Origin: an uncultured Colwellia sp.
GTDB lineage: Bacteria; Pseudomonadota; Gammaproteobacteria; Enterobacterales; Alteromonadaceae
NCBI GenBank assembly: GCA_913058395.1
Contig: CAJXQI010000004.1
Location: 62,001-126,000, forward strand
Direction of reading: 5' to 3'
DNA: 64,000 nt
Shown here one piece after another: positions 706 to 12,332 of this stretch; the stretch's first letter is position 1, and every line of letters begins with the position of its first letter. A model generated the notes under the pieces. That model saw nothing but the letters and a program-made list of their open reading frames with translations. It had not been told where the DNA came from and did not search any database. Both the position numbers and the translations under genes were made by a program.

Positions 706-2152
706 ACTTTTCCATCCTTCTGTATAAAGCTGCACGTGTTAAACCAAGTGCTTTAGCACAATGGCTGATATTGTAGCGATGTTTTTTTAGTGCCGCAGTT
801 ATCGCTTGTTTTTCCATTTCTTCTAAGGTTAACTCTTCAGTTAAATCGTTTTCCATATGAGCATTGGCAGGCAAAAATGCATTTGGGGCTTTATCTGTCA
901 TTTGATTAAAATTTTGCTGTGCTTTTTGCTCTAATTGAAAGTCACTAATTTGTAAGTCAGCATGCTCGGTTAGAATAACTGCACGCTCAATGGCATGGCG
1001 TAAAGCTCTAATGTTTCCTTGCCATGCCTCTTGCAGTAAAACTTGCTTGGTATCGCGTGTTAAGCTGTTAACTGACTTGTTATATTTTTTACTGTATAAA
1101 GCGATAAAATGCTCAGCAATTGGCACAATATCTTCTTTTCGTTCTCTCAGTGGCGGTAAATTAAGGGTCACAGTGTTTAATCGAAATAATAAATCTTGCC
1201 TAAATTTACTCTCATTATTTAGCACTTCCGGAGGAATGTTGGTAGCCGCGATCACTCTGACATTGAAAGGCTGCGCTTTATTACTGCCTAATGGTGTTAC
1301 TTGGCGTTGTTCAAGCACAGTTAATAATTTTGCTTGTAAGTAAAGCGGTAAGTTACCAATTTCATCTAAAAATAAAGTACCGCCATCAGCAGCTTTTAAT
1401 TTGCCAATACGGTCTTGCTGAGCACCGGTAAATGCCCCTTTTTTATGACCAAATAATTCACTTTCAAATAAGCTTTCTGAAATCGCACCTAAGTCAATCG
1501 ACATAAAAATATTGCGCGCACGCTGGCTTTGAGAGTGAATGTCGCGCGCTATTAGTTCTTTTCCGGTACCATTTTCACCTAAAATAAGGACATTGGCATC
1601 AGTTGGTGCTGCTTTATGGATTAGTGCGTGAACATCTTGCATTGGCTTAGATTGGCCAATGATCATTTGCTGCGTATGCTGATTACTAGCTTGTCCTGAG
1701 GTTTCCGCTAAGGTTTGTACCAAGGCTTGGTTAGTTACCTTTAATTGCGCCGCTTCAAACCGTGACTTTCCTAGTTGTACTGCCGTTGATAATGTCGCGA
1801 CAACTTTTTCGTTTTGCCATGGCTTGGCGATAAAGTCAGTAGCACCTTGTTTCATGGCATCGACAGCAATATCGACACCGCCATGTGCTGTGATCATCAC
1901 AACAATACTATTGGGTTTAATGACTAGAATCTCTTTTAGCCAATAAAAACCTTGTTCACCAGAGCTCTCACCTGGGCCAAAATTCATATCTAATAAAATA
2001 GCATCAAAATCATTTTCTTTAATGAGTTTAGGTATTTGTTCGGGGCGATTACATATGCTGACCTCTGAAAATTTACGATTTAGTAGTAATTTTCCTGCCA
2101 CCAATATGTCTTGGTCGTCATCAACGATGAGTATTTTTCCGTCTATTTTCAT
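695..2152 (-). CDS. Sigma-54-dependent response regulator (NtrC family)
   Basis: Three-domain activator. A receiver domain covers about residues 1-120, with acidic pocket DDD at 11-13 and probable phospho-Asp 55. The AAA+ sigma-54 interaction domain has Walker A GENGTGKE near 192-199 and the RNA-polymerase loop GAFTGA at 239-244. A C-terminal Fis-type helix-turn-helix ends in YRRMEKYGL. Presence of GAFTGA means it should truly activate sigma-54 promoters. I chose the ATG at 2152, which gives a normal receiver start (MKIDGKILIVDDD); a TTG at 2176 would add eight residues. It overlaps the kinase gene and is divergent from the ABC exporter operon, whose upstream DNA has a sigma-54 promoter match, so that operon is the probable target. 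Confidence 0.93.
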   Translation of the reverse strand: MKIDGKILIVDDDQDILVAGKLLLNRKFSEVSICNRPEQIPKLIKENDFDAILLDMNFGPGESSGEQGFYWLKEILVIKPNSIVVMITAHGGVDIAVDAMKQGATDFIAKPWQNEKVVATLSTAVQLGKSRFEAAQLKVTNQALVQTLAETSGQASNQHTQQMIIGQSKPMQDVHALIHKAAPTDANVLILGENGTGKELIARDIHSQSQRARNIFMSIDLGAISESLFESELFGHKKGAFTGAQQDRIGKLKAADGGTLFLDEIGNLPLYLQAKLLTVLEQRQVTPLGSNKAQPFNVRVIAATNIPPEVLNNESKFRQDLLFRLNTVTLNLPPLRERKEDIVPIAEHFIALYSKKYNKSVNSLTRDTKQVLLQEAWQGNIRALRHAIERAVILTEHADLQISDFQLEQKAQQNFNQMTDKAPNAFLPANAHMENDLTEELTLEEMEKQAITAALKKHRYNISHCAKALGLTRAALYRRMEKYGL

Positions 2153-2212
2153 TTTTATTTTGATGCTGTACAGCAAGTTAGGGAAACAAACTGTTCAATA
2201 ACGTACACCTAG

Positions 2213-2228
2213 TGTCCGAAAACGTACA
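2213..2228. promoter_or_regulatory. Imperfect inverted repeat, candidate activator (enhancer) site
   Basis: TGTCCG, four A, then CGTACA form an inverted repeat with one mismatch per arm. A further CGTACA lies at 2202-2207. The site is about 90 bases upstream of the proposed sigma-54 promoter, the usual distance for an NtrC-type enhancer, and sits close to the regulator gene, which would also allow autoregulation. Binding is inferred. Confidence 0.45.
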
Positions 2229-2314
2229 GTTTTTTGTTGGTTTTTATTTTTAATAGTAACAGCTGGATAGTATAAAACTGATTTAAAACAGTGGTTTGTG
2301 GGTTTTTATGATGA

Positions 2315-9821: not shown

Positions 9822-11153
9822 ATGCAAAGTGATGTTTCATTCGCACGTATTAAACAATTTCCGATATTAATGTGGATTTTGCTATTCGGCTCATTCATTA
9901 CTCGCGGCAGTTATTACATGGTATGGCCATTTTTAGCGGTAATTCTTTATGAAAAATTTGCTTTATCTGCCACCAATGTTGGGCTTATTCTGTCAAGTGC
10001 CGCTGTTATATCTGTATTAGTGAGCTTTATCGGTAGTGCGCTCTCCGACCGAATTGGTCGTCGTCCCTTAATGTACATCAGTGGTATTTTATATATCATT
10101 TCCTTTTCGTTATTAGCACAAGCCAATACTATTATTGCATACGCTGGCGTGATCACTTTATGTTCTATTGCAACTGCGCTATGGCGACCATTAGCTTCGG
10201 CATTAATTGGCGATATTATTAAAGATAAAAGCACCCGTGAACTCGCCATGCAATCTTTATATTTTATCGTTAATGTCGGTTGTGCTGTGGGCCCTATGGT
10301 CGGGTTATGGCTAGGTTTAACAGGAGAGCAATCAAGCTTTTATATTACTGCGGGAGCTTTTGCTTTCTTATTAGTGTTGTTGTGGTGGGGATTTCATCAA
10401 CATAGTCAGCTTGAAAGCGCAGAAACAGATAAGGTTAAAGAAGCCAGAATTGATACGGAAGCAAATGATAAATCTAAAGCTATAACGGAACCTAATCTCC
10501 CAGCAGAAGCAACCGTAAGCAATAAAAAAGGCAATCAACTTATCAAGGTTCTGGTTGCTGATAAACTGTTGCAATGTCTTATTTTTGCCAACATTTTGTG
10601 CATGTTTATTTATGCGCAAATGGATAGTTCACTTATTCAGTATTTAACTCGTGCGAAAGTGCCCGATCTGCTTGAACTTATTTCAGCGATGATTTTTACC
10701 AATGCGCTAGTTATTATCTCAACACAATTTTTACTATTAAAATTGATGGCAGGTTTATCGTTAATTAATCGTATTCAAGCTGGCTTAGTGCTGCTGATGC
10801 TTTCGCAAATTTGGTTAGCGGTTAATCCCTTAACACTTTTTTGGGGCTGGATAGGCGCAATAATAGTGATGAGTTTAGCGGAAACTATTCTATTTCCTAC
10901 CATGAATGTTCATATTGACCGTTTAGCGCCAGACCATTTACGTGGAGCATATTTCGGTGCGGCCTCTTTCTATGAGTTTGGCTTTGCAATTGCACCACTA
11001 GGAGGAGGGATTATTCTCGACCAACTTGGTGGCCCATCGCTATTTTTCATTGCTGCAGGCCTAACATTGGTTGTTATTTACCTTTATCGAATTTTGGATA
11101 AATTGCCAAGACCAGATTTCACCCAGTTTAAGCCACAATCAAGCGCAGAGTAA
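9822..11153 (+). CDS. MFS transporter (MdtH-like drug/metabolite efflux)
   Basis: A 443-residue polytopic protein with about 12 membrane segments. It has the MFS motif-A-like loop SDRIGRRPLMY between helices 2 and 3, and a central hydrophilic linker at about 196-240 rich in Glu, Lys and Ala. General similarity is to the MdtH/YceL-like proton-driven exporters, but substrate cannot be assigned. Its ATG at 9822 follows CAGGAG. It stands alone, with the MITE-like element upstream and the convergent 6S RNA/repeat region downstream. Confidence 0.85.
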   Translation: MQSDVSFARIKQFPILMWILLFGSFITRGSYYMVWPFLAVILYEKFALSATNVGLILSSAAVISVLVSFIGSALSDRIGRRPLMYISGILYIISFSLLAQANTIIAYAGVITLCSIATALWRPLASALIGDIIKDKSTRELAMQSLYFIVNVGCAVGPMVGLWLGLTGEQSSFYITAGAFAFLLVLLWWGFHQHSQLESAETDKVKEARIDTEANDKSKAITEPNLPAEATVSNKKGNQLIKVLVADKLLQCLIFANILCMFIYAQMDSSLIQYLTRAKVPDLLELISAMIFTNALVIISTQFLLLKLMAGLSLINRIQAGLVLLMLSQIWLAVNPLTLFWGWIGAIIVMSLAETILFPTMNVHIDRLAPDHLRGAYFGAASFYEFGFAIAPLGGGIILDQLGGPSLFFIAAGLTLVVIYLYRILDKLPRPDFTQFKPQSSAE

Positions 11154-11215
11154 TACTGTTAGAAGGTAATGGAAGTAAGGGATAATAGATGTACTTCAAT
11201 AAAATACAGGATAGA

Positions 11216-11705
11216 GACTTCCAAAGTGCCGCCGTTCAGATTAGTTCTGAATATCGGGTGCTTTTCTAGAGAGTTGCGCGGAAATATTATAGATATTTTT
11301 GAGAGTAAGAATAGGTAGTGACTTCCAAAGTGCCGCCGTTCACATTAGTCCTGAACATCGGGTGCTTTTCTAGAGAATGCGCGGAAATATTGTTGGTATT
11401 GTGTGTCTTCAATTGACGTAGGAAAAATTTGAAAATAAGTAGAATATTAGAAAGAGATAGTGACTTCCAAAGTGCCGCCGTTCACATTAGTCCTGAATAT
11501 CGGGTGTTTACTTAGAGTTGCGCGGAAATATTAAAGATATTTTTGAGAGTAAGAATAGATAGTGACTTCCAAAGTGCCGCCGTTCACATTAGTCCTGAAC
11601 ATCGGGTGCTTTTCTAGAGAATGCGCGGAAATATTGTTGGTATTGTGTGTCTTCAATTGACGTAGGAAAAATTTGAAAATAAGTAGAATATTAGAAAGAG
11701 ATAGT
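11216..11705 (-). repeat. Higher-order tandem array of 6S RNA 3'-end copies
   Basis: Four direct copies of the last ~70 nt of the adjacent 6S RNA gene begin (plus-strand coordinates) at 11216, 11320, 11462 and 11564; the authentic 3' end is the fifth, at 11706. Each starts GACTTCCAAAGTGCCGCCGT and ends near GCGCGGAAATATT. Spacings of 104, 142, 102 and 142 show a two-part unit of about 245 bp repeated twice. The 142-base blocks 11320-11461 and 11564-11705 look identical, so the last duplication is recent. Each copy can fold through GTTCA/TGAAC and flanking pairs, but lacks the 5' half of the 6S closing stem and, except in the real gene, the CCTGAACACC hairpin arm. Whether they are transcribed is unknown. 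Confidence 0.85.
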
Positions 11706-11884
11706 GACTTCCAAAGTGCCGCCGTTCACATTAGTCCTGAACACCGGGTGTTCAGGGCGGAAATATCATTTTAACCGTAGGCTTCCCGATACGAGCCGGG
11801 CTTGCACAATAGCTAATAATCAACATCCTTAGTTAAAACTTATCGGCTCAGGGACATAGTTCACAAACGAACACTCCAGAAGAC
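11706..11884 (-). ncRNA. ssrS: 6S RNA (SsrS)
   Basis: About 179 nt on the minus strand, directly downstream of zapA as in other gammaproteobacteria. Recognisable conserved pieces in order are GTGTTCGTTTGTGAAC, GTCCCTGAGCCGATA, GCAAGCCCGGCTCGTATCGG followed by GAAGCC, the hairpin CCTGAACACC/GGTGTTCAGG, and GAACGGCGGCACTTTGGAAG. The 5' end GTCTTCTGGAGTG pairs with the 3' end CACTTTGGAAGTC over about 13 positions with G-U pairs, forming the closing stem. 6S RNA mimics an open promoter and holds sigma-70 RNA polymerase in stationary phase. Ends are placed by stem pairing and promoter distance, and are accurate to a few bases. Confidence 0.92.
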
Positions 11885-11890
11885 AAACTC

Positions 11891-11896
11891 ATTATA
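11891..11896 (-). promoter_or_regulatory. -10 element of the 6S RNA promoter
   Basis: A perfect TATAAT on the minus strand, seven bases before the proposed 6S RNA 5' end at 11884. No strong -35 hexamer is seen 16-18 bases upstream (TTAATA is closest). Confidence 0.7.
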
Positions 11897-12026
11897 GCTA
11901 ATAATGCCAGCTGTATTAAGTCTTTTATCACTTGTAAGACCTGAATGCTTAATGCTTGAACAGATTGAAGTTTCTTTAAACAGAATGACTTTATTTTGAA
12001 AGGTATGAAAAAATTGCCGGTATTAT

Positions 12027-12332
12027 TTAAGCACGTTTTGGTGAATTAACCGCTTGTTCGATTGTGGTTTGAAGCAATTCAATTTTGCTCTGCATTCTCT
12101 CACGCTCTTGTTCGAGGTCAGCACGTGCTTGAAGTAAATCGTTAGCAAGGTTAAGCGACATCATGACAAGTGCTTGTTCAGGGCTTTTCATGGCAGCGCT
12201 TTTTTTGGTATCTTTTTCTAAACGCTTATTAATTTCTTCGGCCGCTTGTAAAAGCGCCGATTCATGGCCAGCAGGACAAGCGATTTTTAATCGTTTGTTG
12301 GCAACATTAATTGTTACTGTGTGTTGGCTCAT
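12027..12332 (-). CDS. zapA: Cell division protein ZapA
   Basis: A 101-residue cytoplasmic protein that binds FtsZ and bundles protofilaments at the Z ring. The N-terminal ZapA core (VTINVANKRLKIACPAGHE) is followed by a long helix (about 50-95) suited to coiled-coil tetramerisation. Length equals that of the family. Location next to ssrS on the same strand, and divergent from the ygfB-pepP-ubiH block, is the conserved gammaproteobacterial arrangement and supports the call. Confidence 0.95.
   Translation of the reverse strand: MSQHTVTINVANKRLKIACPAGHESALLQAAEEINKRLEKDTKKSAAMKSPEQALVMMSLNLANDLLQARADLEQERERMQSKIELLQTTIEQAVNSPKRA

Follow-up and report, generated by a model that had tools for sequence, protein, structure and literature searches.

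Why should the 3' end of a 6S RNA gene be repeated in tandem behind the gene, and do the repeats act as RNA? The question is raised by the window, the whole 64,000-nt stretch of DNA that was analysed, in which the 20-mer GACTTCCAAAGTGCCGCCGT occurs five times on the plus strand, as the initial annotation had reported. The array of 6S 3'-end pseudo-copies is real and recurrent. The decoy role proposed for it is unsupported, and the array most likely persists through DNA recombination.

The 6S RNA gene and the array behind it

The window holds a complete 6S RNA gene, ssrS, on the minus strand (11885-11704, Table 1). Its match to Rfam RF00013 (96.9 bits, E 3.5e-18) spans the full model, 1-187, and exceeds the gathering cut-off of 46.4 bits. 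Covariance-model search thus confirms what had been called a convincing ssrS gene, at the place given except that the start is 11885 and not 11884. In gamma-proteobacteria zapA adjoins ssrS, and ZapA is encoded next to the gene here (12027-12332). 6S RNA is a single-gene RNA in the window's genus, with one RF00013 match per genome in 17/17 genomes. The likely ssrS promoter, TTAATA-17-TATAAT, ends with its -10 box 6 nt ahead of the start of 6S and is a rightly placed consensus match, though not proof. It is the sole promoter-like match in 11100-12100, where shuffled sequences average 2.8, and none was found inside the array. The minus strand yielded no terminator-like site.

Four partial 6S 3' copies follow ssrS on the same strand (11635-11214) in alternating 142- and 102-nt units, so that two 244-bp tandem units hold all four. 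TRF reports the array with score 1007, period 244, 2.2 copies and 96% matches, and a repeat search returns it as family D2 (239 nt, 98%). In Table 1 the identity of the window copies was counted over the last 47 nt of ssrS, and R1 is a sequence model of the 6S 3' half. The 5' two thirds of 6S are absent from the four copies, and RF00013 gave no match to them up to E 5. Elsewhere in the window the longest exact match to the last 46 nt of ssrS is 10 nt. A 101-nt array query found no further copy in the window's genome, only three matches of 14-16 nt. No ORF of at least 20 aa on the ssrS strand is common to all units of the window; a 41-aa TTG-start ORF is confined to the two 142-nt-type units. 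On the plus strand, the reverse complements of three copies form weak terminator-like sites facing the convergent MFS gene (11350-11362, 11492-11504 and 11594-11606; 3 found vs 0.8 expected).

Table 1. Features of the ssrS locus in the window and of tRNA-Arg(ACG) copies in related genomes
Feature	Sequence	Position	Strand	Remarks
ssrS, 6S RNA gene, 182 nt	window	11704..11885	-	Rfam RF00013, complete model
Likely ssrS promoter, TTAATA-17-TATAAT	window	11891..11919	-	consensus match 10/12
zapA, upstream of ssrS	window	12027..12332	-	PF05164, E 1.4e-17
Partial 6S 3' copy 1, 142-nt unit type	window	11562..11635	-	46/47 identical to ssrS 3' end; R1 48.1 bits
Partial 6S 3' copy 2, 102-nt unit type	window	11460..11532	-	45/47 identical; R1 47.9 bits
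Partial 6S 3' copy 3, 142-nt unit type	window	11318..11391	-	46/47 identical; R1 48.1 bits
Partial 6S 3' copy 4, most diverged	window	11214..11288	-	42/47 identical; R1 37.6 bits
Tandem array including ssrS 3' end	window	11210..11752		244-bp period = 102- + 142-nt unit
MFS transporter gene, convergent to ssrS, first gene beyond array	window	9822..11153	+	PF07690, E 7.4e-43
tRNA-Arg(ACG) copies	L239 (G092)	from 1577		
tRNA-Arg(ACG) copies	L241 (G161)	from 2004		
tRNA-Arg(ACG) copies	L279 (G188)	1500-2200		
tRNA-Arg(ACG) copies	L276 (G313)	1500-2250		

The copies had been described as continuous 3' tails of ~37-70 nt. They do keep the 3' end, and with it one half of the 6S closing stem, but each window copy is 73-75 nt long and joins two separate ssrS segments. 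Block 1, ~12 nt reading xATATTTCCGC (ssrS nt ~118-129), opens each copy. Block 2 (nt ~136-182) is in most copies an identity block reaching the gene 3' end, and is followed by a pyrimidine-rich tract. Between the blocks, where ssrS has the hairpin 5' arm CCTGAA, stands a replaced stretch, GCANNCTCTAGAAAAG and variants of it. Ahead of block 1 many copies share AATATCAAYRAT, which is absent from ssrS. In each of the 80 scored copies (of 82, from four genera) other sequence stands in place of the 5' arm of the 3' hairpin. In these copies a mean of 3.8 hairpin pairs can form, none with more than 6, vs 3.7 for left arms dealt anew, and the hairpin of the own ssrS forms 8/8 pairs in 35/35 genomes. 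By eye, several copies of genus g38 carry differing insertions of ~14-18 nt in block 2 between GCGGCA and TTGGAAG, at nearly one point and with the last nucleotides kept (G184, G092, G274, G166, G313).

Occurrence among related genomes

The arrays were mapped by comparing each ssrS with its downstream DNA. One or more copies were scored in 35/53 genomes of four related genera (g1, 10/17; g38, 20/27; g25, 2/6; g34, 3/3), and the 35 carriers hold 82 copies, 1 to 7 per genome. Since copies lie at the same place in so many genomes, the array is not a local accident, and the comparison across relatives removes the possibility that the copies occur in no related genome. In seven genomes copy numbers are lower bounds because the contigs end ~520 nt or less behind ssrS, mostly inside the array (G001 C12, G006 C9, G009 C4, G040 C27, G338 C3, G200 C7, G368 C68). 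The 18 non-carriers include four genomes (G040, G338, G368, G200) with just 1-89 nt between ssrS and the contig end. Draft assemblies of these genera often break at ssrS, which is a caution. The DNA behind ssrS is also crowded by other repeats of the CTCATTGTTTYCTCCCTGTAAAAA type and the GTAGGGGCGACTTCAGTCGCC type (REP-like by eye), in genomes with and without arrays (L026, L029, L039, L036, L032).

Degenerate remnants were found in some non-carriers, by BLAST in G011 and G012, where lone copies have decayed to 75-76% identity, and by eye in G013, G053, G142, G179 and G363. Remnants of block 1 only were seen by eye in G142, G053 and G063 (genus g48). Genus g52 has one carrier among its 6 genomes, G188, whose three copies differ in form: they retain the hairpin, its loop enlarged. 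BLAST of 297-1800 nt behind ssrS gave no match in 97 genomes of the 47 remaining genera of the family. The exact array-core pattern matches two named records, Colwellia piezophila ATCC BAA-637 and Cognaticolwellia mytili KCTC 52417.

R1 searches over 395 genomes of the family agree in outline with this distribution, but their counts were not used because they include an antisense match of the ssrS hairpin. Second matches in the array-free g1 genomes G005, G007 and G008 are this antisense strand and not copies. Over 295 genomes of the order, 130 have an R1 match at E<=1e-4, and more than one match occurs solely in G000; the 165/295 genomes lacking any match indicate that R1 covers other families poorly. 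Eight R1 matches in G035 (genus g20) belong to a separate multi-copy repeat of ~840 bp that carries the 6S 3' end in inverted orientation. At its borders stand 48-58 nt from the 3' end of ssrS, inverted, and it lies on contigs C3, C12 and C31 (L196, L197, L203) and more weakly in L202 and L207. One of its copies directly adjoins ssrS. Other copies are close to genes named by eye as HU and PAAR/Rhs-like, and inspection by eye showed no integrase.

A ZapA+UPF0149 tree of 77 genomes, built by a quick method and with many weak branches, places g1 and g38 each as one group with carriers in both. Array presence and absence require 12 changes on this tree, an overestimate because truncated arrays were scored absent. 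Sister species differ, with four copies in G002 and zero in G007. The next known gene beyond the array in the 35 carriers is a convergent MFS gene in 8 and a codirectional murI in 8, and neither lies within the DNA examined in 19. The distribution fits one old origin followed by many losses, without proving it, plus a separate case in g52, where the array of G188 looks separate. These findings show that a global regulator, 6S RNA, can have its 3' end within a changeable tandem array, and dozens of natural arrays provide material on how stable-RNA 3' ends duplicate, homogenise and decay.

Probable recombination and its alternatives

On balance, the array probably goes back to an old tandem duplication of part of the gene, and unequal crossing-over with ssrS has kept its copies alike, as in arrays of the kind seen at tyrT. 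Copy number varies, lone copies decay, and copies resemble the ssrS of their own genome. Informative cells are those in which the own ssrS differs from that of other genomes; in 29 genomes the copies agree with their own ssrS in 0.95 of these cells for block 2 and 0.79 for block 1, though the cells are not independent. A third column group, labelled arm, reached 0.98, but a single site where block 2 begins (CACCC/CACAC) accounts for this value, which is therefore uninformative about the arm. Differences from ssrS are rare near the 3' end, with 13/78 falling in the last 21 of 40-41 nt among 29 ungapped differing copies. A gradient of similarity rising toward the 3' end is what crossing-over into ssrS predicts.

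A common ancestor would have duplicated part of ssrS in tandem, and the copy would have lost the hairpin arm. The array would then grow and shrink as ssrS and its copies cross over unequally, and each deletion would hand the 3' end of a copy to ssrS. Only lineages whose copies hold a working 6S 3' end would therefore survive, and the 3' block would for that reason stay alike, most strictly at the very 3' end. Any transcription of the array would occur by readthrough from the ssrS promoter. For the most part the array is expected to be baggage that is tolerated, and any role as a reserve 3' end to be small.

Recombination is inferred, and the crossover itself was not directly observed. Two observations count against the model. 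Block 1, ~12 nt between unlike flanks, tracks its own ssrS at 0.79 and is short for homologous recombination. Furthermore, the arm never reverts, though gene conversion should sometimes restore it. A third observation counts against pure neutrality. Between g1 and g38, ungapped identity of copy-specific sequence is 0.51 at -18 to -7 and 0.49 in the arm, and 0.27 in the far spacer; with gaps allowed, the excess over shuffles is 0.07, 0.12 and -0.01, respectively. Copy-specific sequence thus appears conserved between the two genera while spacers are saturated, which leaves open a role at the sequence level.

A mobile element in the array finds no backing, as the array core had no match in a viral collection. 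A related alternative is that tyrosine-recombinase elements integrated at the ssrS 3' end, left copies of the identity block as att scars and were lost. Identity blocks of att sites run from a palindrome centre to the gene 3' end, and the block repeated here likewise begins at the centre of the hairpin CCTGAACAC/GTGTTCAGG and reaches the ssrS 3' end. Partial copies also occur at tRNA genes, which are common attachment genes for integrative elements, and att remnants in tRNA and tmRNA genes also leave, downstream of a stable RNA gene, partial copies of its 3' end. Unlike such remnants, the 6S arrays have no integrase nearby: in 9/9 genomes the 10 kb around ssrS are free of Phage_integrase matches (PF00589, E<=1e-6), the nearest being 11 kb away in G015. 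They consist of regular short units (100-150 nt, with no shared ORF, in the window), similarity to ssrS resumes beyond the replaced arm in block 1, and the window's genome has no copies elsewhere. We consider this origin unlikely.

The copies might instead serve as reserve 3' ends. In a readthrough RNA the 5' strand would re-form the closing stem with a copy, which a pyrimidine tract again follows, and the RNA would gain a new chance to terminate or to be trimmed to a 6S-like RNA. Pyrimidines make up 0.69 of nt 5-24 past the end of the copies (31 genomes) and 0.71 of those past the end of ssrS (52 genomes from the four genera), vs 0.54 at 27-46 nt, and conservation in the copies is highest over the last ~20 nt. 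When one copy is included in the transcript, the copy takes the 5' strand in 29/31 predicted folds. This result is unspecific, however, because an unmodified duplicate behaves in the same way. Across 52 genera, ssrS is followed by pyrimidine tracts whether or not an array is present (mean 0.66), and the search of the minus strand gave no terminator-like site. A reserve function, as modelled, is improbable.

A further possibility is that each copy contains a functional DNA or RNA element, for example a putative processing or protein-binding site at the conserved AATATCAAYRATATTTCCGCGCA...CTAGAAAA. Copy-specific sequence that is not in ssrS is common to genera whose spacers are saturated, which speaks for such an element. 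Against this, the excess is modest once gaps are allowed, the copies fold no better than shuffles, 18/53 genomes of the four genera have no scored copy, and the arms carry varied insertions in g38. Such an element seems quite unlikely from these comparisons.

According to the initial annotation, readthrough RNAs of the array could pair with the 5' strand of 6S, in competition with its closing stem, and so be decoy or antagonist RNAs. All 80 scored copies (of 82) lack the partner strand of the hairpin, and, probably because of this, copies are predicted to bind the 6S 5' half (nt 1-62) somewhat better than the gene's own 3' half does in 24/31 genomes (mean -10.5 vs -8.7 kcal/mol). The copies are not more structured than shuffles: distinct copies folded alone have a mean z of +0.07 against dinucleotide shuffles, and the last 66 nt of their own ssrS -1.5. 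Compensatory-looking changes noted by eye in a local hairpin (G122, G161, G090, G184) were not upheld by folding, and RNAalifold consensus shapes differ between g1 and g38 copies.

Substitutions in the copies do not spare pairing with the 5' strand. In the 3' block of 29 copies from 17 genomes (10 identical and 14 gapped copies set aside), they cost 4.07 vs 3.79 kcal/mol expected at fixed positions (P 0.76), and random positions gave P 0.94 in the 17 genomes. An earlier signal, 2.43 vs 4.73, was withdrawn because the tested segment included nucleotides of the replaced arm. In readthrough folds a copy takes the 6S 5' strand in 29/31 cases, an unmodified duplicate in 31/31 and a shuffled copy in 14/31, and strand capture was rejected as a copy-specific signal. 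Even the shuffled copy lowers the own pairing of ssrS to 0.31, vs 0.60 for ssrS alone. In addition, the array has no promoter-like site and is missing from many members of the four genera. Folding therefore gives the decoy proposal no support, and we regard it as highly doubtful.

Comparison with known systems

Titles and abstract openings of the open PMC literature contained no description of tandem 6S 3'-end arrays, in agreement with the initial view that such copies are undescribed. In terms of RF00013, the fifth, complete element is the 6S gene and the four copies go unrecognised. In the Bacillus cereus group, two complete, paralogous 6S genes are reported in tandem (PMC7726162). There, as here, more than one 6S-derived unit is adjacent, but in the window the 3' parts alone are repeated.

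Partial 3' copies are not confined to 6S, as tRNA-Arg(ACG) copies lie behind intact tRNA-Arg genes in 3/17 genomes searched (G092, G161, G188). They measure 33 nt in G092 (exact) and G161 (one exact, one 94%), and G188 has two of 38 nt. All keep the T-arm and the acceptor 3' strand and, by eye, have one anticodon-stem strand or its loop replaced. G188 carries both kinds of array, and G313 has two full-length tRNA-Arg(ACG) versions with inserts. The window's own genome has a 54-nt tRNA-Arg match, but this is a gene truncated where a contig ends and not a partial copy, and many 3'-end matches to the tmRNA model are whole tandem tRNA-Glu genes, which are ordinary. The ssrS and tRNA-Arg(ACG) arrays might represent one kind of element, made of 3'-half copies of stable RNAs from which one strand of a neighbouring helix is removed, leaving the 3' strand open. 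If transcribed, they would act as decoys for anything that targets the 3' half of the RNA, such as its own 5' strand, trimming nucleases, toxins or integrases; we think this distinctly improbable. The tmRNA and RNase P genes of ten array-bearing genomes had no partial copies (20/20 loci, 1500 nt searched), and the process is therefore not general to all stable RNA genes. By analogy, the patterns at tRNA genes and at E. coli tyrT suggest that it is wider than 6S.

The 6S array resembles the 178-nt tRNA-Tyr 3' repeats of E. coli tyrT and, by this analogy, is of the same kind. In E. coli K-12 (NC_000913.3), 203-nt repeats lie in register behind the tRNA-Tyr genes with 178-nt spacing and 95% identity, and the repeat next to tyrV overlaps the tyrV 3' end by 19 nt. 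Like tyrT (tyrTV), the window array consists of tandem repeats behind a stable RNA gene that carry the 3' end of that gene. The two differ in the RNA concerned and in how much of it is repeated, 19 nt of a tRNA at tyrT and ~47+12 nt of 6S RNA in the window. They also differ in content, since tyrT has an annotated RttR RNA and the small protein tpr, whereas the units of the window share no ORF and so have no counterpart of tpr.
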